This document shows positions 41,668 to 58,575 of a stretch of DNA of 64,000 nucleotides, piece by piece. The translations under genes were made by a program, and so were the position numbers. This DNA comes from Alicycliphilus denitrificans K601. GTDB taxonomy: Bacteria > Pseudomonadota > Gammaproteobacteria > Burkholderiales > Burkholderiaceae_C. Positions within the stretch are counted from its first letter, which is position 1, and every line of letters starts with the position of its first letter. A model generated the notes under the pieces. That model was not told the DNA's origin, searched no databases, and was given only the letters and a program-made list of their open reading frames with translations. The DNA is taken from the NCBI RefSeq assembly GCF_000204645.1, contig NC_015422.1, forward strand, positions 3,799,001-3,863,000, written 5' to 3'.

Positions 41668-42987
41668 TCAATCCCTCTCAGGCGGGGCATCCGCCGCAGC
41701 AGCATTGCGCGCGCGCAGCTCTTCGAGCTTCTGGCCGATCTTGATTTCGAGCCCGCGCGGCACGGGCGCGTAGAAGCCCGGCGGCTCCATGCCCTCGGGC
41801 AGGTAGCTCTCGCCGGCGGCGAAGCCCCCCTCCTCGTCGTGCGCGTAGCGGTAGCCCTTGCCGTAGTCCAGCTCCTTCATGAGCCTGGTCGGCGCGTTGC
41901 GCAGGTGCATGGGCACGGGGCGGGTGCCGTCCTGCTTCACGAAGGCGCGCGCCTTGTTGTAGGCCATGTAGCCCGCGTTGCTCTTGGGCGCCACGGCCAG
42001 GTACAGCACGGCCTGGGCCAGGGCCAGTTCGCCCTCGGGGCTGCCCAGGCGCTCGTAGGTCTGCGCGGCCTCATTGCAGATCTGCATGGCGCGCGGGTCG
42101 GCCAGGCCGATGTCCTCCCACGCCATGCGCACGATGCGCCGCGCCATGTAGCGCGGGTCGGCCCCGCCGTCGAGCATGCGCACCAGCCAGTACAGCGCCG
42201 CGTCGGGATCGCTGCCGCGCACCGACTTGTGCAGCGCGCTGATGGTGTCGTAGAACTGCTCGCCGCCCTTGTCGTAGCGGCGCATGCGCTCGCCCAGCAC
42301 CTGCAGCAGCCAGGCGTCGGTGATCGTCTCCACCTTGGCCTGCCCGGCGGTGACGGAGAGCGTCTCCAGCGTGTTGAGCAGGCGCCGCGCGTCGCCGTCG
42401 GCGTAGGCGATGAGGCGCTCCAGCGCTTCGTTTTCGATAGCTGGAAGCGCTTGTATATCCTGGGCCCGAACCACGATCTGCTTCAAATCGTCGGAGGTGA
42501 GCGGCTGCAGCACGTAGACGGCCGCGCGCGAGAGCAGCGCGGAGTTCACCTCGAACGAAGGGTTCTCGGTGGTGGCGCCCACGAAGGTGAACAAGCCACT
42601 CTCCACGTGCGGCAGGAAGGCGTCCTGCTGGCTCTTGTTGAAGCGGTGCACCTCGTCCACGAAGACGATGGTGCGCTGCGGCATCAAGCCGCCCGCCGCA
42701 CTCTCGGCCAGCTGCACCGCGTCGCGGATATCCTTCACGCCGCCCAGCACCGCGCTGATGCTGATGAACTGCGCGTCGAACGCCTCGGCCATCAGCCGCG
42801 CGATGGTGGTCTTGCCCACGCCCGGCGGCCCCCACAGGATGCAGCTGTGCGGCCGGCCCGACTCGAACGCCAGGCGCAGCGGCATGCCGGGGCCCAGCAC
42901 ATGCTGCTGGCCGACCACCTCGCCCAGCGTGCGCGGACGCAGGCGCTCGGCCAGGGGTTGGTGCGAAAGCGAAGAAACGTGACTCAT
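41668..42987 (-). CDS. rarA: Replication-associated recombination protein A
   Basis: The 439-aa AAA+ ATPase has GPPGVGKT (53-60), the Walker [17 protein letters not shown], sensor [18 protein letters not shown] and the C-terminal MgsA_C region. It acts at stalled replication forks. The ATG overlaps the stop of the integron integrase gene (ATGA), so the two may be co-translated. Residues about 178-186 (IQALPAIEN) are encoded by a copy of the dispersed palindrome. Confidence 0.95.
42431..42460. repeat. Dispersed palindromic repeat, copy 4, inside rarA
   Basis: TTTCGATAGCTGGAAGCGCTTG followed by TATATCC (read in two parts) keeps the GATAGCTGG-AAGCGCTT core of the family within the rarA reading frame. 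The partner stem CCAGCGCTTC lies just upstream at 42419-42428. Confidence 0.6.
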
Positions 42988-43982
42988 AGCGCATCGAGCG
43001 GGCTCAGCACGCCGCGCCCGCCCTTGTTCAGAACATGGGTGTAGATCATGGTGGTACTCACATCCTTGTGGCCCAGCAATTCCTGCACGGTGCGGATGTC
43101 GTAGCCCGCTTGCAGCAGGTGGGTGGCGAAGGAATGCCGCAGCACATGCGGAGTGCAGGGCTTATCGATGCCCGCGCGGCGCGCGGCCAGGGCCACCGCC
43201 TTCTGCACCGACTGCTCCAGCATATGGTGGCGCCGCTCCACGCCCGAGCGCGGATCCACCGAACGCACCGCGCTCGGAAACACATACTGCCAGCCCCAGG
43301 CCGTGGCGGCATTCGCATACTTGACCGCCAGCGCATCGGGCAGCCAGACGGCGCCAAGGCCCGCGTCCAGATCCTTGCGGTGCAGCATGCGGGCGCGCTC
43401 CATCTGCTCGCGCAGCGGCGCGATCAGATTCTCGGGCAGCACGGTCACCCGGTCCTTGTTGCCCTTGCCCTCGCGCACGATCAGTTCGCGCCGCTCGAAC
43501 TCCACATCCTTCACGCGCAGGCGCAGCGCTTCGAGAATGCGCATGCCCGTGCCATACAGCAGCGAGGAGACCAGCCACTGCGTGCCCTGCAAGTGCAGCA
43601 GCAACTCGCGCACCTCGCGCTGCGTCAGCACCACCGGCAGACGGCGCGGCTTCCTGGCCGAAACCACCTCGTCCAGCCAGGGCAGGTCTTGCTGCAATAC
43701 CTCCTTGTAGAGAAACAGAATGGCGGCCTTGGCCTGGTTCTGCGTGGAAGCGGACACATTGCGCTCGACAGCCAGGTGCGTCAGGAAGGCGGTGACATCC
43801 GGCGCCCCCAGTTCGCGCGGATGGCGCTTGCCGTGGAACAGAATGAAGCGGCGTGCCCAATCCACGTATGCCTGCTCGGTGCGGATGGAATAGTGCAGCA
43901 CCCGGATGCGCTGGCGCAGCGACTCCAGCAACTTAGGTGGCTGCGGCACGGCAGGAGCGGGCGGAACGGGAAACGCATCCAT
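42984..43982 (-). CDS. intI: Integron integrase (tyrosine recombinase IntI)
   Basis: The 332-aa tyrosine recombinase has Arg148 ([13 protein letters not shown]), Lys173-175 region (REGKGNKDR), His279-Arg282 ([11 protein letters not shown]), His305 (ELLGHKDV) and Tyr314 (MIYTHV). The IntI-specific insert is present around 215-252 ([19 protein letters not shown], then SVDPRSG and RRHHM), separating it from XerC/D. It should recombine attI with attC. The frame is open from start to stop, so it looks active. The stop overlaps the rarA start. No LexA-type CTGT-N8-ACAG box was found upstream. Confidence 0.95.
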
Positions 43983-44087
43983 CCGTGGAATTTTAGGCGG
44001 TCTAAATTGCTGCTGACATAGGGTAAGCTGGGAGCAGAATGCGCCGCATTCTTGACTTAGGCCGCATCAGATCAGTAGCATGCGACG

Positions 44088-44105
44088 ATCTAATTCTAGT
44101 TAGAC
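44088..44105. other. attI recombination site core
   Basis: ATCTAAT and GTTAGAC form an inverted pair around TTCTA, as in the simple site of attI. Strand exchange is expected after G44099, so the first cassette begins at 44100. It lies 117 bases upstream of the intI start. Any cassette promoter should lie between it and intI; none was clear enough to mark. Confidence 0.6.
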
Positions 44106-44158
44106 TTTTGGGCGGCGCGAATCTTGCTGCCCAAAGGCTTGCATTTACGGAGCAAAAA

Positions 44159-44521
44159 ATGAGCACTCACCGCGTGTATAAGTCCCATGAATTCATGCAG
44201 CCAGCCGAGAAAGAACCAATACGGTCTGTTGTTGTTGAATCTTCGCATTCAGTTATCGTGGCTTGGCATGTGGAGCCCGGCCAAACTATTGCGCCACATA
44301 TTCACCCCGACGGACAAGATACATGGACCATCCTTTCAGGGGAAGGTCAATATCAAATTGACGAGCAAGGCAACACCGTTGCAATTGTTCCGGGGGATAT
44401 CGTAGTTGCAAACAAAGGGCAGGTGCACGGTGTTCTTTGCACCAGCGTTGGCCCACTTCGGTTCATTTCAGTGGTTGCGCCTTTGGATGCTGGTTATGAA
44501 CCGCTATCAGCAAAAACATAG
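44159..44521 (+). CDS. Cassette 1: small cupin-domain protein
   Basis: The 120-aa protein is a single cupin: motif 1 VEPGQTIAPHIHPDGQDTW (His residues and Glu/Gln positions for metal) and motif 2 VAIVPGDIVVANKGQVHGV. The ATG at 44159 has GGAG 7 bases upstream. It may bind a metal and small ligand; the reaction is unknown. As the first cassette after attI it is the most likely to be expressed. Confidence 0.82.
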   Translation: MSTHRVYKSHEFMQPAEKEPIRSVVVESSHSVIVAWHVEPGQTIAPHIHPDGQDTWTILSGEGQYQIDEQGNTVAIVPGDIVVANKGQVHGVLCTSVGPLRFISVVAPLDAGYEPLSAKT

Positions 44522-44557
44522 GGGATATCAAGTGCAACAAGCTGCCTCCGCTCCCCA

Positions 44558-44647
44558 GCCTAACTGTTTGGTCAAGCTGACGCCAACAGGCTCCGCCTGT
44601 TGGTACCCTCCGCTTCGCTCCGGCGCAGCTTACCGCGGGCGTTAGAG
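44558..44647 (+). other. attC site of cassette 1
   Basis: It starts with the inverse core GCCTAAC and ends with GTTAGAG. AAGCTG and CAGCTT pair near the ends, and ACAGGC/GCCTGT forms an inner hairpin. Length 90 bp. Confidence 0.75.
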
Positions 44648-44699
44648 CACATCACTCACGATGCAGGACTCAATATTATTTCATTATAGGATATTTTAA

Positions 44700-44969
44700 A
44701 TGTTTACCTCCCGCAACCCAACACGCAGCATCCTTTACACAGGGAATCCAATGACCATGAAAAATTCTGTCGTGGATGGTGACACCGTTACTCTAAAAAT
44801 AGAAAGTATTGATGTATACGTTAAAAATATCAGAAATCTGGGGAATGGAAAGTATTCCGGGGAAGTCCATGGATTCGAACCATTCAATCCAGCAGAATTT
44901 AAAAATCTAAAACTAGGAGATGTCGTTGAATTTAAAGAGTCAGAGATATTTTCATGCAGCAACCACTAA
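44700..44969 (+). CDS. Cassette 2, gene a: small protein of unknown function
   Basis: The 89-aa frame starts at 44700 with AGGA 8 bases upstream. An in-frame ATG at 44751 with AGGG 6 bases upstream would give 72 aa and may be the true start. The body (VKNIRNLGNGKYSGEVHGFE, then GDVVEFKESEIFSC) reads like a compact beta-rich domain. I do not recognise the family. Base composition is AT-rich, unlike the host. Confidence 0.55.
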   Translation: MFTSRNPTRSILYTGNPMTMKNSVVDGDTVTLKIESIDVYVKNIRNLGNGKYSGEVHGFEPFNPAEFKNLKLGDVVEFKESEIFSCSNH

Positions 44970-45031
44970 CGCACAAAACTAATTATTATAGCGATCTGTG
45001 CGCAATATCAGACTTCCAACAAAAACGGGCC

Positions 45032-45841
45032 ATGATTAGAAAATTTTTTATTTTACTGGCAATTTCTATAATGCTAGGGGGGTGCGCAAATGGCTACAAG
45101 CAATTTTACAAGCCAGCAAATGGAGTGACGCCCGAATCAATCGCTCGAATGCGCGCAAACCCACCGCCGGAGACGCCGCTCGTTGAAAGAATCCCTCCAA
45201 TTAATGGATCTGCCGCAATGGATGCTTATTCGAAAAGAGGATACATACTAATTGGGAGTGCAGAATTCAATAGCAGTCGAAGTGAATCTGAAAATTCAGC
45301 GATTGAACAAGGGAAAGCTGTAGGAGCCGATCTTGTTGTTATTTTAAATCCACAATATGCAGGCTCTGAATCATCTGTCATACCGATCACTACACCAACA
45401 ACATCAACAACATATTCGACTGGTTCCGCCACCGCCTATGGGAAAGGGGGAGTGGTAACGGCATATGGCAATGGAACTAGCACCACCTACGGAACAACAA
45501 CTAATTTTATCCCCGTCACCATTCACAGGACAAACTACAGTGCAGGTTATTTTATAAAACAAAAAACTATACTTGGCGTACAAGCAAGAGATTTGAATGA
45601 CAAGGAGCGCCAAGAATTAGGAACAAATAAAGGGGTCGTCATTACCTTGATTGTCGATGACTCACCTGCATTTAAAGCAGACCTCTTACCTGGCGACATT
45701 GTAATCTCAATCAACGAAACACCCATATCAAGTATGAGTCAACTTTCGAAGTCAATCTTAGAACGCAGCGGTAATCTCATTACTCTTGGCATTATTCGCA
45801 ATGGCCGCAGTATAAATCTTCCAGTTCAGCTGAATCAATAA
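45032..45841 (+). CDS. Cassette 2, gene b: lipoprotein with C-terminal PDZ domain
   Basis: The 269-aa protein starts with a lipoprotein signal ending in LGGC (Cys about residue 17). A middle region rich in Ser/Thr/Tyr/Gly (TTPTTSTTYSTGSATAYGKG) follows. A C-terminal PDZ domain is seen (about 185-265: LGTNKGVVITLIVDDSPAFK, LLPGDIVISINETPISSMSQ). It is probably anchored in the envelope and binds peptides. The region is strongly AT-rich. It shares the cassette with gene a, with no attC between them. Confidence 0.78.
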   Translation: MIRKFFILLAISIMLGGCANGYKQFYKPANGVTPESIARMRANPPPETPLVERIPPINGSAAMDAYSKRGYILIGSAEFNSSRSESENSAIEQGKAVGADLVVILNPQYAGSESSVIPITTPTTSTTYSTGSATAYGKGGVVTAYGNGTSTTYGTTTNFIPVTIHRTNYSAGYFIKQKTILGVQARDLNDKERQELGTNKGVVITLIVDDSPAFKADLLPGDIVISINETPISSMSQLSKSILERSGNLITLGIIRNGRSINLPVQLNQ

Positions 45842-45845
45842 TACT

Positions 45846-45905
45846 TTCTAACATTTCGGTCAAGCCGACCCGCCTACGGCGGTCGGCTTACCTCAGGCGT
45901 TAGCG
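45846..45905 (+). other. attC site of cassette 2
   Basis: Inverse core TTCTAAC, then GTCAAGCCGACC, a CGCC-TA-CGGCG hairpin, GTCGGCTTA and core GTTAGCG. Length 60 bp. Confidence 0.8.
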
Positions 45906-45910
45906 CGTAC

Positions 45911-46588
45911 ATGACAGTCGATTTAGCTCTCATAATTAATCAGTGCGAGGACTACCTATTTCCTACGCGCAGCTTTAGCGTGCGGCAACGAGCCCTTTAC
46001 TACCATCTGTTCCGCCACACGCACTTGGAAGGTAAGTCTTCTGGCTTGTTCTCCTTACTTCCTCTTTCAAACGCCATCGGCGTTGCAGAAAGTTCTGTGC
46101 GCGAGGATGTAAGAGCGCTTCACGAGCGCGGCTGCCTCGTTATCGAAGACCGTTCTCGTAACGGCCACTTGCTGCGAGTATTGTTGCCATCTGACATCCC
46201 AGGCGTCGTCCCAGAGACACGGCCTGAGGTTCAGATAGACATCGCGTCCATGGACTTCTTCTCAAACCGTCGCTTTCTTTCGGTATTGCTGGCCCGCGAG
46301 GACGGGCGTTGCTTCTACTGCCTAAAAAGCATTCGCGCCGAGTCATGCGAGCTTGACCACGTGTCGTGTCAAGCAAACGGCAAAGATAACTCCATTCGCA
46401 ATATTGTTTGTTCGTGCCACGAGTGCAATACGACAAAGCAAGCCCAACCCGCCGCAGACTTTGTTCGGTCGCTTTATCGAAAGGGCGTTTTATCTCAGCC
46501 TGAGCTCGAAAATCGTTTGTCGGCACTTGAGCAGCTTACGGCTGGAAATTTGCTGCCAGATCGAGCACTTCTACAGAGTGCGCTCTAA
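45911..46588 (+). CDS. Cassette 3: HNH endonuclease with N-terminal winged-helix domain
   Basis: The 225-aa protein has an N-terminal helix-turn-helix-like part (about 20-95, FSLLPLSNAIGVAESSVRED) and a C-terminal HNH domain. The domain shows Cys134-x2-Cys137, Asp149-His150, Asn164 and Cys169-x2-Cys172. The zinc-ribbon HNH layout suggests a DNA nuclease, perhaps restriction or phage defence, which is inferred. The ATG lies only 6 bases after the attC core, and the TAA stop lies in the inverse core of its own attC. Confidence 0.82.
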   Translation: MTVDLALIINQCEDYLFPTRSFSVRQRALYYHLFRHTHLEGKSSGLFSLLPLSNAIGVAESSVREDVRALHERGCLVIEDRSRNGHLLRVLLPSDIPGVVPETRPEVQIDIASMDFFSNRRFLSVLLAREDGRCFYCLKSIRAESCELDHVSCQANGKDNSIRNIVCSCHECNTTKQAQPAADFVRSLYRKGVLSQPELENRLSALEQLTAGNLLPDRALLQSAL

Positions 46589-46640
46589 CACGTCAATCCA
46601 GCCGACCGCCTTCGGCGGCGGCTGATTTCAATCGTTAGTC
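46583..46640 (+). other. attC site of cassette 3
   Basis: Inverse core CTCTAAC (containing the HNH stop codon), CAGCCGACCGCC-TTC-GGCGGCGGCTG hairpin, core GTTAGTC. Length 58 bp. Confidence 0.75.
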
Positions 46641-46893
46641 CCATCCTGCTTTATGCGCGCAGTCACTTGCTCCAGCGCTCGGCCCTGCTCCCAAGGCTTT
46701 CAAGCCTTTTTGGCCTCCAGCGCTTGTGTAGCAAGCGCCACCAGCTATCATTATTGCAGCGCTGCGCCGCTTTCGTGGCCCAGCGCTTTTTCATGGGCTG
46801 CGCCCTTCTTCAAGTCCGGGCGCTCCCTTTTGGCCTTCGGGTCTAACCCGGCGTTCAAGCCGACCCGCCTACGACGGGCGGCTTACCTTGGGC
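46635..46893 (+). other. Cassette 4: gene-less cassette carrying the host palindrome
   Basis: About 259 bp between the attC3 and attC4 crossover points hold no convincing gene. The only frame of note (81 codons) is low-complexity and runs into attC4. The segment contains palindromes of the AGCGCTT family, including a full copy at 46714-46757, plus TTGCAGCGCTGCGCC. It looks like host intergenic DNA captured as a cassette. Confidence 0.65.
46714..46757. repeat. Dispersed palindromic repeat, copy 5, inside cassette 4
   Basis: CCTCCAGCGCTTG, a short loop and CAAGCGCCA followed by CCAGCTATCATTATTG, the same layout as the chromosomal copies at 10.4 and 54.4 kb. Confidence 0.7.
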
Positions 46894-46900
46894 GTTAGCG
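46841..46900 (+). other. attC site of cassette 4
   Basis: Inverse core GTCTAAC, TTCAAGCCGACCCGCC-TACGA-CGGGCGGCTTA hairpin (read in parts), core GTTAGCG. Length 60 bp. Very close in sequence to attC2, attC9 and attC10. Confidence 0.8.
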
Positions 46901-46922
46901 CTCGAGAAATGGGCTACCTGTC

Positions 46923-47939
46923 ATGATTGTTGTTCTTGATTCGAATGTTTGGCTATCTGAACTAGGACTTAGGTCTGGGGCGGCAGCTGCGGTGCGGTTC
47001 TTCCTCAACCAAAGCAATGCTCAAGTTGCCGTTCCTGAGGTCGTTCAACTCGAAGTTCGACACAACTTGACGAATCGCCTTAGCACTCATGCCAAGGAAA
47101 TCCGCGACAACTATCGGCAGTTGCTAACCGCCTTTGGCAAACTGCGAGAAATAGTCCTGCCTACAGAGGAAGAAATTCAAGCAAAAGTCGAAGAGCTTTT
47201 TGCGTCTCTCGGGGTACAGCAACAACAGATCCCCTTCAGCTTGGAGAGTGCGCGCAGCGCCTTATTCAAGGCGATACAAAAAGCGCCTCCTTGTGACAAG
47301 AGCCAGGAATTCAAAGACGCAGTTATTTGGGCTGATTGCGTTGCTTTGCTTGCAATTGATGAAGTTGTCTTGGTCACTAACGACAAGGCGTTCTACCGAG
47401 ATAGAGCTTACGAGAAAGGACTCGCTCCAAATCTTCACGACGAAGCGAAAAACCTACCACACCCAATCCGCATACTACCTAGTCTTAGCGATCTTCTCGA
47501 AGTTATTCAGGCGCCGATTCCTCTGGAGCAAGAGCAACTCCAGGAAGCTATCTTCGAGGCCTTCGGCGAGAGCATTAACGGTACGCTCGCTCGAACCGGC
47601 TTCAGTCTTGGCGCAAGACAAGACGTGACCTACAAATTATTTGCCACAGAGAATCCGAGTGAATTGTTCTTGGAATTTTCAATAGCCATCGCATGTAGCG
47701 ACTCACGTGAAGAAGGCCGCACGAATGCGTTACTTAGCCTCAATGGCGACGGGCTTTATTCACCGACGAATCGTACATTTGCGAATCTTCGGAATTTCGG
47801 CGAGCACCTTGCTTGGCTGAACGCGAATGGCGAACCGCAGGAAACCAGAAACCACTATTTGTACGCTAATGGGATAGTGATCGGCCATAGAGAGGTTACC
47901 TATGATGCGCGGCATGCGCTCCCTGCCAATGAGCGCTAA
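46923..47939 (+). CDS. Cassette 5: PIN-domain protein (DUF4935-like)
   Basis: The 338-aa protein has a PIN-type RNase core in its first 170 residues: Asp6 (VVLDSNVW), Glu44 (VVQLEVRHNL), Asp132/Asp138 (KDAVIWADC) and Asp154 (LVTNDKAFYRD). An extra C-terminal half of about 160 residues has no recognised domain. There is no neighbouring antitoxin gene. A 5-codon reading frame (46909-46926) ends in an ATGA overlap with this start and may help translation. Confidence 0.8.
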   Translation: MIVVLDSNVWLSELGLRSGAAAAVRFFLNQSNAQVAVPEVVQLEVRHNLTNRLSTHAKEIRDNYRQLLTAFGKLREIVLPTEEEIQAKVEELFASLGVQQQQIPFSLESARSALFKAIQKAPPCDKSQEFKDAVIWADCVALLAIDEVVLVTNDKAFYRDRAYEKGLAPNLHDEAKNLPHPIRILPSLSDLLEVIQAPIPLEQEQLQEAIFEAFGESINGTLARTGFSLGARQDVTYKLFATENPSELFLEFSIAIACSDSREEGRTNALLSLNGDGLYSPTNRTFANLRNFGEHLAWLNANGEPQETRNHYLYANGIVIGHREVTYDARHALPANER

Positions 47940-48005
47940 CAAGCGCTTGCAGCCGACCGTCAAAAAGCTGCGCTTTTCGCCGTCGGCTGAAGCTTTACGT
48001 TGGAC
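47934..48005 (+). other. attC site of cassette 5
   Basis: Inverse core CGCTAAC (with the PIN stop codon), CAGCCGAC and GTCGGCTG arms, inner AAAAGC/GCTTTT hairpin, core GTTGGAC that fits GTTRRRY fully. Length 72 bp. Confidence 0.8.
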
Positions 48006-48008
48006 GCT

Positions 48009-48551
48009 ATGAAAGTGGTAATCATCGGAAATGGGGGAAGCGGGAAGACTTGGCTCGCCAAGCAATTGGCCTCCCGATTTTCATCAAGACTGGTACACCT
48101 TGATAATGTGTTCTGGGAGCCAGGAGGATTTGACAAGAAAAGGAAAGCCGACGATGTCTCCTTTCTTGTTCAGCAAACCAAGAGCGCTGATTCATGGATA
48201 GTCGAGGGAGTGTTCGGCGAACTGGCGGAGAGATACCTTGATGAAGCTGCTGCCCTTATATGGCTTAACCTGGATTGGGAAACCTGTAAGCGACGACTTG
48301 AGATGAGAGGATCGGAGAGCAAGGCACACATGAGCCGGATTCAGTCCGAAGCAGGGCTGGTTAAGCTTATTGAATGGGCGTCAGAATATTGGGTCCGTGG
48401 CGATTCTAGATCTTTCCATGGACACGAAAGGATATTCGAAAACTTCAATGGCTTCCGCGTCAAGCTGCGGAGTGAGGAGGAGGTAACCCGGTTTGTTAAC
48501 AGCGTCCAACAAGTCATTCCAGCGGACGCGGCGCAAGCGCCGCGCCGCTGA
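48009..48551 (+). CDS. Cassette 6: P-loop kinase-like protein (adenylate kinase/topology modulation type)
   Basis: The 180-aa protein has the P-loop GNGGSGKT (7-14), then LVHLDNVFWEPGGF, SWIVEGVFGELAERYLDEA, LIWLNLDWETCKRRLEMRG, the pattern of small adenylate-kinase-like proteins called FlaR or topology modulation protein. The ATG lies 3 bases after the attC5 core, so there is almost no leader. The last 15 or so codons (from VIPADA on) lie inside attC6, so the C-terminus is set by the recombination site. Confidence 0.8.
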   Translation: MKVVIIGNGGSGKTWLAKQLASRFSSRLVHLDNVFWEPGGFDKKRKADDVSFLVQQTKSADSWIVEGVFGELAERYLDEAAALIWLNLDWETCKRRLEMRGSESKAHMSRIQSEAGLVKLIEWASEYWVRGDSRSFHGHERIFENFNGFRVKLRSEEEVTRFVNSVQQVIPADAAQAPRR

Positions 48552-48566
48552 ATTCGGACGTTAGGC
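48504..48566 (+). other. attC site of cassette 6
   Basis: Inverse core GTCCAAC, hairpin CAGCGGACGCGGCGC-AA-GCGCCGCG-CCGCTG (read in parts), core GTTAGGC that fits GTTRRRY. Length 63 bp. Confidence 0.8.
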
Positions 48567-48684
48567 CTCAGAAATGCCGCCAGACCTTCTAGTTGCTCTG
48601 TTGTCAAGTTCAGCCGTGAGCGCGGTGATAGTGACCTGCCCCCATTGACCGTGCCAACAGATTGGAGAAGTCCGGGGTTGAAGG

Positions 48685-49518
48685 TTAATCGAAGTTTTGT
48701 TTCTGCTCACTGCCAGCAGCACCGCCAGCGCGCTGGCGGTGCTGCTGGGCGAATCGTGCCGGCGGGATGCGTCCCAAACTGCTGTGCGGCCTGACCTCGT
48801 TGTAATCCCGCCGCCAATGTGCAATGCACTCCCGGGCCTGTGACAAGGATTCAAACCACTGCTCGTTGAGGCATTCATCTCTGAACTTGCCGTTGAAGCT
48901 CTCGATGTAGCCGTTCTGCATGGGCTTGCCCGGCTCAATCAGGATGTGCCGAATCCCGTTCTTGTGCGTCCAGGCCAGGAACGCCCGACTGGTGAACTCC
49001 GGGCCATTGTCCGTTCGCACTGCTGCCGGGTAGCCACGCAACCTTGCCACTTGGTCGAGCACGCGCGTGACGTACTGGCCCGAGATGCCGTAGTCCACCG
49101 TGATGTCCACGGACTCCTTGCTGAAGTCATCCACCACCGTCAGACACTTGATGCGCCGTCCACTGGACAGACTGTCCGAGACGAAATCCATGCTCAGCAC
49201 CTCGTTGATATTCCTGGCCAGTTGCAGCGGCACACGCTCTTGCGCTGGGCGTTTGACTTTGCGGCGCTTCTTCACCGTCAGGTTGGCCTGCCGGTACAGC
49301 CGATAGATGCGCTTGTGGTTCACCCCCGGAAACTGCTGGCGCAGCATGTCGTGGATGCGCCGGTAGCCGAATCGGCGGCGCACCAAGGCCGTTTGCCGAA
49401 TCTGTTCACCCAGGGTGGCGTTGAGCTCGCTGGGCTGCGGTGGGTGGCGGTAGCTGTCTCGGGATAGCCCCACAAGGCGGCAGGCGTGCCGCTCCGAGAG
49501 GTGATGCTGCTCAATCAT
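48685..49518 (-). CDS. IS3-family transposase orfB (integrase core)
   Basis: The 277-aa frame holds the rve integrase core: first Asp in LSMDFVSD, second Asp in RTDNGPEFTS and the Glu in YIESFNGKFRDE. It also has the N-terminal HTH_21-like region. It is probably made as a fusion with orfA through a -1 frameshift near a GTAAAG run just before the orfA stop, since the orfB frame is open back to that point without its own good start. Confidence 0.9.
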   Translation of the reverse strand: MIEQHHLSERHACRLVGLSRDSYRHPPQPSELNATLGEQIRQTALVRRRFGYRRIHDMLRQQFPGVNHKRIYRLYRQANLTVKKRRKVKRPAQERVPLQLARNINEVLSMDFVSDSLSSGRRIKCLTVVDDFSKESVDITVDYGISGQYVTRVLDQVARLRGYPAAVRTDNGPEFTSRAFLAWTHKNGIRHILIEPGKPMQNGYIESFNGKFRDECLNEQWFESLSQARECIAHWRRDYNEVRPHSSLGRIPPARFAQQHRQRAGGAAGSEQKQNFD

Positions 49519-49550
49519 CTGCCGGATGGCATCGCGGCGCGCCTGTGGGG

Positions 49551-49826
49551 CTAGCGCTTTACCCCGAAGACGCTCTTGAGGGCGTGGATGTCCAGGTGGG
49601 CTTCGGCCAGCAGTTTCTTGAGCTTTGCGTTCTCGCTCTCAAGCTCGCGCAGGCGCTGGGTCTCTGAGACCTGCATGCCGCCGAACTTGGCACGCCATTT
49701 GTAAAACGTGGCCTGGCTGAAGCCGCCGCTGCGGCACAACTCGGGGATGCCCATGCCGGCTTCGGCCTGTCGCAAGAAGCCAATGATTTGTTCGTCGCCG
49801 AACCTGCTCTTCTTCATGTCCGTCAT
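49551..49826 (-). CDS. IS3-family transposase orfA
   Basis: The 91-aa protein has the IS3 orfA helix-turn-helix (FGDEQIIGFLRQAEAGMGIP, LCRSGGFSQATFYKWRAKFG) followed by a leucine-zipper-like coil (LRELESENAKLKKLLAEAHL). It binds the IS ends and, fused to orfB, makes the active transposase. Confidence 0.9.
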   Translation of the reverse strand: MTDMKKSRFGDEQIIGFLRQAEAGMGIPELCRSGGFSQATFYKWRAKFGGMQVSETQRLRELESENAKLKKLLAEAHLDIHALKSVFGVKR

Positions 49827-50398
49827 TCTCCTGGGTTGACGGGCTTCTCTCGTTTACTGTGGTACGGCTGGTGGGGGGCAGGTCACGAGCACGAACGTCA
49901 CGCTTACGCCCTCACCGCAAGCACCAGTCTGCGATCGTTCAGCCTCAGCGCTTGTCCTGTGGGCACCACAGTGGCGGCCTGATCAGAAGGATGTCGCAGC
50001 GCGTGAGGAAGCAGCAGCGTCCGGTCTCAGTAACTTCTTCGCAAGTTCAGGTTGCTTCGCCCGCACAGAGTTGCGCCGCGTAAGCAGTCTCAGCCCTTCA
50101 GAAGTCAACTCGGAGCTCGGTGCTTCCGGTGGCCAGTTCAGCGCAGTTGTCACCATTGCTGTCCGCGAACTCGGGCCCGTGGTCAAGTTGCTGTCTTCCG
50201 CTTCGCTTGTCGAGGGAGGCACCGAGGCCGTCCTCCAAGTCACATCGCGCCGGCTGCAGCCGTCCAGTCAAGCACGTGAGTTCACAGTTCATTGGCGCCA
50301 TGGCGGCCCAGGCGTAGTCAAAGGCGTGGCCAGTCTGCCCAGCGACATGAGCGCCGCCCTGCGCTCCGGCCTGCAGCCTGCCACTGCAACGCAGTGAC

Positions 50399-50526
50399 GC
50401 CTAACCCTTCGCTGGAGCGGGACCTCCACCGGCCTGGCACTTGGCCCGCGAGGCGCTGCAGGTCTATGCTCCGCCTCGCGGGCCAAGCGCCATTCCGGTT
50501 CCGGCCCCTCAGCTCAAACGTTAGAC
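50399..50526 (+). other. attC site of cassette 7 (long form)
   Basis: Inverse core GCCTAAC to core GTTAGAC, 128 bp. A long stem pairs CTTGGCCCGCGAGGCG with CGCCTCGCGGGCCAAG around a loop of about 17 bases. It is twice as long as most others in this array, suggesting a different origin. Confidence 0.78.
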
Positions 50527-50535
50527 ACCGTCACC

Positions 50536-51252
50536 ATGGAACCGTATCTCTTCTACGGAGTTGTGCTACCCGAACGGGCTCAGCTGACACTTCAATTCAG
50601 TGTCGGCTTTTCTCACATCGCTTCCGGAGTTGAAGGCACTGCGAAGGTGAGCATCATTCTGAACCAAGTTGCTGTCACCGTTGAGAGCGAACACAAATGG
50701 GGTATCTTTGACCTTCGGAATGTCGTCAAGAACATCGTCCAAAATCATCTGGCTATGGTTGGTTATCTCATGGGCTACGCCTACGATTTCGAGGTGACCC
50801 GCGTCCTAAATCAAGGCCGCGAAATCGATTACGTTTTTGGCATTGACATTCCGTGCCTCACAGAGCGAAACAAGAAAATTGATTTAGGGGTTGCCTTGGC
50901 GAGCCTTCGCGAGAAGACTGCGGGGGAGAACGGAGTGTTTCTGAATCGTTGCTTCTCCGATCTAGCCTCCTCAATGAAGCATGCTGACGACACTGCCTTC
51001 TACTGCTACAGGGCAATTGAATCCCTACGTCACCACTGTGCTGCGGTACACGGTTTGTCGGACGCAAACAAAACCACTCAGTGGGAGAAGTTTCGTCAGG
51101 TTTCTGGATGCACGGAGGAGGTTCTCCGCCAAATCAAGGTAGCAGCTGATCCTTTACGTCACGGTGAGGTGTTGGGAGGCAGTTCCGAAGACCGCGAAAA
51201 GTTGTTCATGGCAACTTGGGACGTCGTCGATGGCTATCTCCGCGGTGTCTAA
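50536..51252 (+). CDS. Cassette 8: hypothetical protein
   Basis: The 238-aa protein is not recognised. It is soluble, without signal peptide. The N-terminal third is beta-rich (LTLQFSVGFSHIASGVEGTA, VSIILNQVAVTVESEHKWGI). The C-terminal part is helical with AFYCYRAIESLRHHCAAVHG and VAADPLRHGE, similar in feel to HEPN- or methylation-associated helices, but this is only an impression. The ATG lies 10 bases after the attC7 core, and the TAA is in the inverse core of attC8. Confidence 0.65.
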   Translation: MEPYLFYGVVLPERAQLTLQFSVGFSHIASGVEGTAKVSIILNQVAVTVESEHKWGIFDLRNVVKNIVQNHLAMVGYLMGYAYDFEVTRVLNQGREIDYVFGIDIPCLTERNKKIDLGVALASLREKTAGENGVFLNRCFSDLASSMKHADDTAFYCYRAIESLRHHCAAVHGLSDANKTTQWEKFRQVSGCTEEVLRQIKVAADPLRHGEVLGGSSEDREKLFMATWDVVDGYLRGV

Positions 51253-51318
51253 CCTCTCGGTCAAGAGGGACGCTCCGCCGGCAAGCCGGCTCCGCGCCCC
51301 TTACCTCCAACGTTAGGA
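51247..51318 (+). other. attC site of cassette 8
   Basis: Inverse core GTCTAAC, AAGAGGGACGC arm, inner CCGGC-AA-GCCGG hairpin, core GTTAGGA. Length 72 bp. Confidence 0.78.
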
Positions 51319-51338
51319 TCAATCGAGGAGAATCAGAT

Positions 51339-51602
51339 ATGTCAGGGAGAATACGAACAAGCGGACAATCCCTTGTTAGAACTTTTTCAGCTATGGGATC
51401 AGATGGCGTAGATTACTTAGTAAGCGAATTCGTCCTTCATCAGGAAGTCCAATAATATAACGGAAACTGGGCGCCCATAGAAAATGGCCCAAGAGAATTC
51501 CAATTATCCAATGGCAAACGAGTGTATGGCTCACACTTAGGCGATAATTTGTTCACCATCGCCAATACAACAATAACACTCACCCCCACTGAGCCAACCT
51601 AA
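51339..51602 (+). pseudogene. Cassette 9: small gene with an in-frame TAA
   Basis: An ATG at 51339 with GAGGAG 9 bases upstream opens 38 codons (MSGRIRTSGQSLVRTFSAMG onward) to a TAA at 51453-51455. The same frame then runs on for 48 sense codons (YNGNWAPIENGPREFQLSNG, continuing to TLTPTEPT) and ends with a TAA inside the attC9 inverse core, as other cassette genes here do. It reads as an 87-codon gene broken by one nonsense codon. A functional 38-aa product or read-through is possible. Confidence 0.6.
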
Positions 51603-51656
51603 CCCGGCGGTCAAGCCGACCCGCCTTCGGCGGGCCGCTTACCTAATCCGTTAGGT
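51597..51656 (+). other. attC site of cassette 9
   Basis: Inverse core ACCTAAC fits RYYYAAC fully. GGTCAAGCCGACCCGCC pairs with the GGCGGG-CCGCTTACC arm around TTC, and core GTTAGGT fits GTTRRRY. Length 60 bp. Confidence 0.85.
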
Positions 51657-51684
51657 CTGCTATCCAACATTAAAGGAAGATGCC

Positions 51685-51990
51685 ATGAAAGCGTTCGCTC
51701 TTGCGCTTCTTGTCACATCCATTTCCTGTGCGTGTAGCTCTACTCCACCTGCACAAGCTGATCGGAACGTTTCATTCACCTGCACCAACGGCGAATCGAT
51801 TTCTGTGGTCTTCTCTCCTGCCAATGGCACCGCCATTCTAGTGCGCAACGGGGAGAACATTGAGCTCAAGCAACAACCAAGCGGCTCTGGTTTCATGTAC
51901 AGCAACGGCCCCAACACCATTCGCGGCAAAGGCAATGATCTGACCGTTGAGATCGGCCGCATGGTGCCGCTCCAGTGCAGTTCAGAGTAG
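51685..51990 (+). CDS. Cassette 10: MliC-type C-type lysozyme inhibitor lipoprotein
   Basis: The 101-aa protein has an N-terminal signal (MKAFALALLVTSISCACSST) with a lipoprotein-like cysteine. An MliC domain follows: VSFTCTNGESISVVFS, ILVRNGENIELKQQPSGSGF, MYSNGPNTIRGKGNDLTVEI. These proteins protect the cell wall by inhibiting C-type lysozyme. It is the last cassette, so expression from the integron promoter would be weak unless it has its own. Confidence 0.85.
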   Translation: MKAFALALLVTSISCACSSTPPAQADRNVSFTCTNGESISVVFSPANGTAILVRNGENIELKQQPSGSGFMYSNGPNTIRGKGNDLTVEIGRMVPLQCSSE

Positions 51991-52032
51991 CTATCGTTAT
52001 GGCAGCGCTGAATTTTCTCAAACCACAACAGG

Positions 52033-52089
52033 GTCTAACATCGTGGTCAAGCCGGCCCGCCTACGGCGGCCGGCTTGCTGCCATTAGTC
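52033..52089 (+). other. attC site of cassette 10 with degenerate core
   Basis: Inverse core GTCTAAC, GGTCAAGCCGGCCCGCC-TAC-GGCGGCCGGCTTG hairpin (read in parts), then ATTAGTC where GTTAGTC is expected. The lost G should weaken recombination, and it marks the distal end of the array. Confidence 0.7.
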
Positions 52090-52118
52090 CCTCCAAATAC
52101 TGGAGTCAAAACACCGCC

Positions 52119-52253
52119 ATGCCCCTACGTATCGTCCGCCCCGGCAGCCCGCGCGCACCCGCCGGCAAGGACGAGGCCCACCGCCACCGCGCCACGCTGA
52201 GCGAACCGCAGGCCGAGGCGGGGGCGCACATCTTGGACATGAGCGCCGGATGA
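52119..52253 (+). pseudogene. DUF488-like gene remnant with internal deletion
   Basis: The 44-codon frame begins MPLRIVRPGSPRAP, like the start of DUF488 proteins. It then passes directly to GKDEAHRHRATLSEPQAEAG, which resembles the C-terminal E-DEARCHR-type segment of the same family. The central 80-100 residues are missing. Its stop overlaps the start of the next gene (ATGA), so the deletion kept the frame. The assignment is by memory of the family and needs a search. Confidence 0.45.
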
Positions 52254-52840
52254 GCGAATCGCTGCCCGCCCTGCTGCACCGCGTGCGCGCCTGCACCATC
52301 TGCGCCGCCCACCTGCCGCTGGGCCCGCGCCCGGTGCTGCAGGCCGCGGCCGGCGCGCGCATCCTGATCGCCGGCCAGGCGCCGGGGCGCAAGGTGCACG
52401 CCAGCGGCATCCCCTTCGACGACGCCAGCGGCGCGCGCCTGCGCGCCTGGCTGGGCCTGAGCCCGGAGCAGTTCTACGACCCGGCGCTGGTGGCCATCCT
52501 TCCGATGGGCTTTTGCTACCCCGGCCCGGGCCCATCGGGCGACGCGCCGCCGCGCCCCGAATGCCCGCCCGCCTGGCGCGCCCCGCTGCTGGAGCGGCTG
52601 CCGCACATCGCCCTGACCGTGGTGCTGGGCCAGTACGCGCTGGCCTGGCACCTGCCGCAGGCCCCGCGCCAGGTGACCCGGGCGGTGCAGGAATGGCAGC
52701 GGCACTGGCCCCACACCGTGGTGCTGCCCCACCCCAGCCCGCGCAACAACGGCTGGCTGGCGCACCACCCCTGGTTCGAGGCCGAGCTGCTGCCGCAGGT
52801 GCGCGCGCGGGTGGCCGCGGTGCTGGCGCAGGCGGGCTGA
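52250..52840 (+). CDS. Uracil-DNA glycosylase family protein
   Basis: The 196-aa protein has the superfamily layout: RACTICAAHLPLGPRPVLQA, the catalytic-loop region LIAGQAPGRKVHASGIPFDD, GARLRAWLGL and the C-terminal VLPHPSPRNNGWLAHHPWFE. The HPSPRN motif fits UDG superfamily members; substrate range is unknown. It is the first intact chromosomal gene past the integron. Confidence 0.88.
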   Translation: MSESLPALLHRVRACTICAAHLPLGPRPVLQAAAGARILIAGQAPGRKVHASGIPFDDASGARLRAWLGLSPEQFYDPALVAILPMGFCYPGPGPSGDAPPRPECPPAWRAPLLERLPHIALTVVLGQYALAWHLPQAPRQVTRAVQEWQRHWPHTVVLPHPSPRNNGWLAHHPWFEAELLPQVRARVAAVLAQAG

Positions 52841-58533: not shown

Positions 58534-58575
58534 TTTTTTGATAGCTGGAAGCGCTTGCCCCGCAAGCGCTTCAGC
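58534..58575. repeat. Dispersed palindromic repeat, copy 7
   Basis: TTTTTTGATAGCTGGAAGCGC, TTGCCCCGC loop and AAGCGCTTCAGCC. It lies between the rpmG terminator and the rsmB stop. Confidence 0.75.

Follow-up and report, generated by a model that had tools for sequence, protein, structure and literature searches.

The closest described systems to the locus reported here are the chromosomal integrons of Comamonadaceae and other Burkholderiales, the integron of Diaphorobacter nitroreducens, the class 1 mobile integrons and, for a single cassette, the gcuF/orfF cassettes. The locus lies in a 64,000-nucleotide stretch of Alicycliphilus denitrificans K601 (contig NC_015422.1, positions 3,799,001 to 3,863,000; hereafter the window, whose numbering is used throughout). 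We are highly confident that it is a complete chromosomal integron with ten cassettes and recent cassette exchange. Loci of relatives are numbered with L and genomes with G, G000 being the window's own.

The integrons of Comamonadaceae and other Burkholderiales (L003, L004, L006, L008 and L094-L096) resemble the window in IntI family, attC type, divergent layout and DUF1010 cassettes, and L094-L096, like L001, share its attI motif. However, the Comamonadaceae IntI clade (16 rows, starred support 100, IntIs of congeners included) does not take in the window IntI, which lies nearer to Caldimonas and other Sphaerotilaceae (fork supports 90-94, unstarred), and the window's site differs from that of L094-L096. 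The D. nitroreducens integron (L001) has an IntI 93% identical to the window's, the same site and the same ATGA overlap with rarA, but the 1.6 kb of its array that was compared shares only DUF1010-type cassettes with the window. Class 1 integrons share cassette 1 at 100% identity, plus DUF1010 cassettes, whereas the window integron is chromosomal and its integrase is only 60% identical over 328 residues to IntI1 of plasmid NZ_LN879548. The class 1 model PRK15417 (intI1) gave 415 bits, below its cut-off of 435, which leaves the window IntI outside class 1. The gcuF/orfF cassettes (dfrA12-gcuF-aadA2, and gcuF1 of PMC3375312) carry the same DUF1010 annotation as cassette 4, which in the window lies instead between HNH and PIN cassettes.

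An intact integrase, an attI site and ten attC sites

An earlier note, made from the sequence alone, had claimed an IntI-type integrase with the full catalytic set and the IntI-specific insert, and our analysis bears this out. The gene has an intact frame of 332 codons, and the integron integrase model TIGR02249 matched its product at full length with 473 bits (cut-off 265), whereas the XerC and XerD models stayed far under their own cut-offs. The catalytic set R147, H279, R282, H305 and Y314 was present, and residues 216-237 form what we take to be the IntI-specific insert. With XerC and XerD of the host as outgroup (its XerC scored just below the XerC model cut-off), a tree of 115 rows placed all 113 IntI rows, that of the window among them, in one group, split from the host XerC/XerD with starred support 99. 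The window and D. nitroreducens IntIs formed a pair, also with starred support 99.

Ten attC sites, all in one orientation, span 44558-52089. We searched for them with a covariance model, R1 (60 positions, 11 pairs), trained on relatives only and without window sites: 87 attC-like sites were detected by core boxes and folding in 14 relative loci, and 46 were hand-picked from these, with near-copies, long sites and doubtful sites dropped. R1 matched nine of the ten window sites, all on the plus strand and with E-values from 1e-15 to 1e-3 (at 46841, 45846, 51597, 46583, 48504, 51247, 52033, 44558 and 47934), and its only further matches in the window at E<=1 were the reverse strand of two of the same sites. 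The tenth, attC7, is 128 bp long against an R1 length of 60; it was missed by the model and clear by structure scan. The earlier note had described the junctions as attC-like and the cassettes as ten, and had set three sites as the fewest that a covariance model should find, so its account of the array stands.

A strict scan requiring near-complete core pairing recovered only three of the ten sites, and its criteria were loosened. The loose structural scan found nine array sites (all except the last) and two elsewhere in the 64 kb, and 50 shuffles of the array region gave a mean of 0.76 sites and a maximum of 3. The terminal core of attC10 reads ATTAGTC, not GTTRRRY. An Rfam scan of the window returned no family at gathering score; to our knowledge, attC is not in Rfam. 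GC content per 1-kb step was 44-62% in the array and 60-76% in the rest of the window, in line with the claimed difference in composition between cassettes and host. Two further claims held in part: the range 42984..52089 does contain a real integron, but the array proper begins at 44099, and the ending of open reading frames (ORFs) inside the next inverse core, said to be frequent, applies to the HNH, PIN, 238-aa and cassette 9 ORFs, only four of ten. The cassette 6 ORF terminates within attC6.

On the whole genome to which the window belongs, R1 gave nine matches at E<=1, eight in the array and one elsewhere (150 of 7833 candidates were scored, and lone sites may be missed). The match elsewhere, at G000:C1:3107421-3107480 (L122), has a degenerate 3' core and stands behind a RibD/dihydrofolate-reductase-family-like ORF and directly before a ferrochelatase-like ORF (names by eye). 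Here one cassette has been inserted on its own, outside the array.

The motif TCTAATTC(T/C)AGTT adjoins intI in the window and in L001, L094, L095 and L096. Its presence in these four relatives sets the crossover after 44099, with the attI core at 44099-44105 and cassette 1 at 44100-44641, and the plasmid match of the cupin cassette starts at this crossover. SOS control of intI was considered and found no support: upstream of intI we found no LexA box, the best candidate having 3 of 8 mismatches to CTGT-N8-ACAG, the sole motif tried. According to PMC3108266, LexA boxes occur in 56.6% of 1,103 intI sequences, and loss of LexA control is apparently usual among species of soil and fresh water that carry chromosomal integrons.

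Cassette exchange and the rarA-udg site

Cassette 1 is identical at 542 of 542 bases to cassettes in Comamonas thiooxydans (NZ_LN879548) and Klebsiella quasipneumoniae (NZ_CP058136), and four Pseudomonas plasmids carry it at 99.3-99.6% identity over all 542 bases, which makes six plasmid records. Its context is intI1-cupin-qacG2, a class 1 integron, in NZ_LN879548; aadB-cupin in NZ_CP058136; and intI1-chlorite dismutase-cupin beside tni genes in the one Pseudomonas plasmid inspected. The first position of cassette 1 in the array and its identity to plasmid cassettes argue for recent movement, in one direction or the other. In the relative loci (E<=1e-4), no cassette protein other than the DUF1010 type had a match save for a cupin at 49% in L043, so the cassette content turns over.

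The integron lies on contig G000:C1 (4,995,263 bases), in the chromosome and on no transposon or plasmid, between rarA and udg. The intI TGA overlaps the rarA ATG (ATGA), rarA being the next gene after intI on the same strand. Homology to empty sites stops 21-24 bp inside the rarA start and begins again near the second codon of udg. Comparison with close relatives, proposed in the earlier note, found the site empty in five of six same-genus genomes: in G001, G002, G003, G005 and G006 the rarA and udg matches are 97-128 bp apart with no integron between, and G004 gave no rarA match, its udg standing at the start of a contig. The platform takes the place of a congener spacer of about 100 bp, with intI joined to rarA in an operon-like manner. 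The location is not stable within the host lineage, since the site is empty in these five and a different IntI, 71-73% identical to the window's, lies at another locus in three (G002, G003 and G006). That IntI adjoins an sdaA-like gene in G002 and G003, with a norR-like gene at the far end in G002 and G006 (names by eye); in the window genome the sdaA-like and norR-like genes are separated by about 960 bp that contain one copy of the dispersed repeat of cassette 4 but no IntI. L001 has the window's intI-rarA overlap but is assigned to another genus than the host, which is itself close to Diaphorobacter. Gain by transfer would fit this pattern, and so would an older presence followed by losses. 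Two other integrase genes were seen: in one congener, a second intI that is broken, its two pieces lying on opposite strands (L097, G002:C1:717889-718771), and a second, distant intI in the apparent D. nitroreducens genome (L163, G013:C7:2679-3623).

RarA stands beside IntI in two of 80 relative loci (L001 and L050), some of which stop soon past intI, and in two of 80 searched IntI-bearing family genomes (G013 and G032), an IntI match being present in 92 of 200 family genomes; G013 is apparently the genome of L001. L050 (Rhodocyclaceae; its IntI has an in-frame stop) shows the ATGA overlap too, and G032 has a 23-bp gap between intI and rarA. These IntIs fall in three tree clades, and starred branches force at least two changes, so rarA is a recurrent integron position. 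A GlmU-like gene, which follows intI in L005, L043 and L072 (Gallionella-type loci with IntIs in different clades; name by eye), is another. An sdaA-like gene follows intI in L094 and L095 (name by eye). This census chose the longest ORF, a crude rule, and met no ORF or a contig end in three rows.

Two other explanations of the locus were weighed. The recombinase could be of Xer or phage type and the hairpins ordinary repeats or terminators; IntI and Xer do share a fold, and the XerC/XerD models give 142-148 bits on the window IntI. The TIGR02249 score and the split of the 113 IntI rows from the host XerC/XerD speak against this, both core boxes are present in the attC sites, which delimit the cassette units exactly, and the idea, scarcely credible, is already disproved by tree and attC model alike. 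A degenerating, inactive integron, the fossil of an ancestral array in which recombination has ceased, is improbable. In its favor, an IS3-family element interrupts cassette 7, the cassette 9 ORF contains an in-frame stop, attC10 is degenerate and no LexA box was found. The interrupted cassette and the stop indicate that part of the array is decaying, and together with the failure to find a LexA box they weigh against a complete integron with recent exchange. Against a fossil stand the intact intI, the attI-proximal cassette, all 542 bp of which are the same as in plasmid cassettes, and cassette proteins that, apart from the DUF1010 type and the 49% cupin of L043, are unmatched in the relative loci compared. 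A complete integron that recently exchanged cassettes is the reading we retain. In it IntI would act on circular cassettes, joining the bottom strand of their attC sites, in folded form, to attI at 44099; new cassettes would enter beside intI and be transcribed away from it by the candidate promoter Pc, and the degenerate attC10 would mark the oldest end of the array. The sequence itself shows an intact IntI, an attI site, ten attC sites, exact cassette borders and the plasmid-identical cassette 1, which, like the lone cassette of L122, bears on recombination only indirectly; recombination, Pc activity and the direction of cassette transfer are what we infer.

The DUF1010 cassette

PF06231 (DUF1010) matched the cassette 4 ORF with 129.5 bits (cut-off 25). 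The front half of this ORF is a copy of a palindromic chromosomal repeat with at least 24 other copies in the same genome at E<=0.001 and at least 39 at E<=0.03 (scoring covered 40 of 100 candidates). Eight of the nine best copies lie outside genes, by crude gene calls from third-position GC content, each at most 53 bp from a predicted gene boundary, and one lies inside an ORF. Likely copies also occur in the window at 99-137 (E 4e-4) and 58539-58570 (E 0.005). In the same genome, the last 18-19 positions of PF06231 match attC2 and attC9, and its positions 3-25 match one repeat copy, so the family corresponds to the repeat plus attC, translated. Cassette 4 is a recurrent cassette of the host's bacterial family, composed of the host's dispersed repeat and an attC site.

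Among 200 family genomes, 30 had a PF06231 match, 20 of them above cut-off. Among the matches listed, 50 copies were of near full length (model positions <=7 to >=57), and by hand count 48 of these were free of stops, whereas 23 of 54 repeat-only matches outside arrays carried at least one. Cassette 4 was matched by 1839 of 72,556 plasmid records at E<=1e-5 (21 at 90-95%), mostly from Escherichia, Klebsiella and Salmonella; 29 of 30 records taken across the ranking covered 74-98% of the cassette and one covered only attC. Two weaker matches that were inspected lay between dfrA12 and aadA2, where the cassette is presumably gcuF. A run of DUF1010 cassettes was seen at L205 (G006:C19:34000-42677), on a contig other than that with the only strong IntI match of G006.

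DUF1010 cassettes are also known from published integrons. PMC11616780 records such a cassette 42 of 195 times on blaGES-5 integrons. In PMC3375312, a cassette of Acidovorax sp. JS42 is named the nearest relative of gcuF1, so the Comamonadaceae link of gcuF1 has already been published. Literature searches on DUF1010, on gcuF and on gene cassettes with repetitive extragenic palindromes showed, among the titles and abstracts listed, none on a repeat origin of DUF1010 or on selection on its frame, a weak negative.

The 76 DUF1010 copies analysed came from the window, ten relative loci, two plasmid stretches and 13 other stretches, 26 sources in all; one copy is present twice, through the overlap of L153 and L202, and at least one known copy (L001) was missed. 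Sixty-two were colinear over 50 codons, 58 of them unique. In these 58, frame 0 contained 1 stop against 13.4 expected with a random base at the same sites (0 of 2000 as low) and 25.9 expected with columns permuted (P 0.001). The other frames were at expectation, with 51 stops against 50.3 and 41.2 in frame 1 and 112 against 112.7 and 128.2 in frame 2. Among the 14 non-colinear copies, ten shared a 42-nt deletion and one had a 3-nt insertion, all in frame; one had a base change in frame and two were unplaced. Differences at codon positions 1/2/3 numbered 15673/16177/14942 over 1483 pairs, compared with 478/289/931 in the IntI control, and the ratio of nonsynonymous to synonymous differences (pN/pS) was 0.76 in 24 copies, for which the two remaining forward frames gave 0.73 and 0.78.

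The frame continued through the attC hairpin in 71 of 76 copies, of which 40 ended at the TAG of the GTTAG core, 25 ended 7-9 nt before the core and 6 beyond it; of the others, one stopped before attC, one inside the hairpin and three were unclassified. Since the three frames of attC sites at large stay open beyond the hairpin in 53, 53 and 55 of 56 cases, the selected part of DUF1010 would be the 50 codons before attC, and the run through attC was dropped as a special feature. Spurious translation of noncoding DNA, which fitted the equal change at codon positions, was also dropped, on the frame-specific avoidance of stops.

Our tentative account is that DUF1010/gcuF cassettes are translation relays: a dispersed repeat of Comamonadaceae-type hosts, captured together with an attC, would be under selection for an open frame that carries ribosomes through the hairpin, with little or no selection on the peptide. 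Ribosomes that cross the attC hairpin would then help translate the next cassette. An open frame without peptide conservation fits this role, and a loosely constrained peptide fits as well. Several results weigh against a relay. The openness of attC sites in general is one; in addition, stop avoidance was borderline in the first 24/27 copies (P 0.02-0.06), frame 0 replacements were a little more conservative than expected by chance (mean BLOSUM -0.74 vs a null of -0.845, 95% -0.902 to -0.781), and they were slightly fewer (773 vs 781-808), although frame 1 was low too (732 vs 740-770). Some peptide-level constraint is therefore possible, at most slight. Tested as a protein family, PF06231 showed equal codon positions, strong stop avoidance and a slight conservative bias.

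A real, fast-evolving small protein, with the peptide as what selection keeps, is likewise a possibility we hold only tentatively. The same conservative replacements favor it, as do the frame-specific stop avoidance, the length changes of 42 and 3 nt that keep the frame and, in PMC3375312, a gcuF1 that reads through its own attC into a fused OXA-28, where the fusion protein is made and OXA-28 output is lowered. The third-position excess expected of such a protein, strong in the IntI control, is absent from the 1483 pairs, pN/pS is no different from that of the other forward frames, and the N-terminal part also matches dispersed repeats, among which stops are common. That cassette 4 acts only as DNA or RNA (promoter, antisense RNA, terminator or mRNA stabiliser), roles reported for cassettes that lack an ORF, is unlikely; its fold is strong (z -2.6), the chromosomal repeat is palindromic and promoter cassettes without an ORF exist (PMC6557892), but this would leave the stop avoidance specific to frame 0 unexplained. 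The element as a whole is of a known kind, an integron. Its location and, most of all, cassette 4 are what is out of the ordinary, features on which the earlier note did not remark, and the DUF1010 family seems to be kept readable without protein conservation.

Other cassettes and significance

Table 1. Features of the integron and its borders in window coordinates.
Feature	Position	Strand	Evidence
rarA (MgsA AAA+ ATPase)	41668..42987	-	Pfam MgsA_C, 225 bits
intI, integron integrase, 332 aa	42984..43982	-	TIGR02249, 473 bits; catalytic residues; tree
Candidate cassette promoter Pc, TTGACT-18-TAGCAT	44052..44081	+	Consensus scan; same hexamers in D. nitroreducens L001
attI site, CTAATTCTA-GTTAGAC, crossover after 44099	44090..44105	+	TCTAATTC(T/C)AGTT conserved in four relatives
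Cassette 1: cupin, ORF 44159-44521, attC1 44558-44647	44100..44641	+	Cupin_2; R1 match; 542/542 identity on two plasmids
Cassette 2: 89-aa ORF and PDZ lipoprotein ORF 44954-45841, attC2 45846-45905	44642..45899	+	PDZ_2; R1 match
Cassette 3: HNH protein 45911-46588, attC3 46583-46640	45900..46634	+	HNH_5; R1 match
Cassette 4: DUF1010/gcuF type, ORF 46653-46898 running through attC4 46841-46900	46635..46894	+	PF06231; R1 match
Dispersed palindromic chromosomal repeat, copy inside cassette 4 (front half of ORF)	46698..46757	+	Other genome copies
Cassette 5: PIN_12 protein 46923-47939, attC5 47934-48005	46895..47999	+	PIN_12; R1 match
Cassette 6: P-loop kinase-like protein 48009-48551, attC6 48504-48566	48000..48560	+	AAA_18; R1 match
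Cassette 7: interrupted, attC7 50399-50526 (128 bp)	48561..50520	+	Structure scans
IS3-family insertion sequence in cassette 7, orfA 49826-49551, orfB 49518-48685	48632..49885	-	NF033516, 234 bits; ends and flanks
Cassette 8: 238-aa protein 50536-51252, attC8 51247-51318	50521..51312	+	R1 match; family-less
Cassette 9: ORF from 51339 with in-frame TAA, attC9 51597-51656	51313..51650	+	R1 match
Cassette 10: MliC-like lipoprotein 51685-51990, attC10 52033-52089, degenerate core ATTAGTC	51651..52083	+	MliC; R1 match
Uracil-DNA-glycosylase-family gene (udg), far insertion boundary	52250..52840	+	UDG

The remaining features are collected in Table 1, with starts corrected for the cupin ORF (44159, not 44039), the kinase ORF (48009) and the lipoprotein (probably 45032, by eye). 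The IS3-family element is 1254 bp long, its flanks showed no target duplication, and the genome contains another full copy of it. The remaining cassette 7 ORF (50071-50397) had no Pfam match, and the 89-aa and 238-aa proteins belonged to no Pfam family (for the 238-aa protein, none at E<=0.01). A protein search of the plasmid collection returned nothing for the HNH or PIN proteins and one match, at 28% in Photobacterium damselae, for the 238-aa protein. Between attC10 and udg lie about 160 bp of host-like GC content (52090-52249), with a 44-codon ORF that overlaps the udg start (by eye); blastn to the congeners' empty sites gave no match here before about udg codon 2.

The earlier note had also called the cassette products defence-like, which our PADLOC searches did not sustain. 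The HNH protein of cassette 3 showed weak HNH-domain likeness to PtuB and Cas9 (best E 1.2e-5), matches of the kinase-like and 238-aa proteins were weaker still, and nothing was found at E<=0.01 for the PIN, MliC, cupin or PDZ proteins. A DrmC model matched IS3 orfA, where Pfam finds a transposase HTH (HTH_Tnp_1), and this model is probably mislabelled. Judged by these comparisons, no cassette encodes a recognised defence system.

A chromosomal integron without a fixed place in its genus and with a plasmid-identical cassette helps to trace gene exchange between environmental and mobile integrons. The DUF1010 cassette adds a testable account of a common, unexplained gcuF-type cassette in resistance integrons, one that covers its possible origin, its protein-family label in databases and its possible effect on the cassettes behind it.

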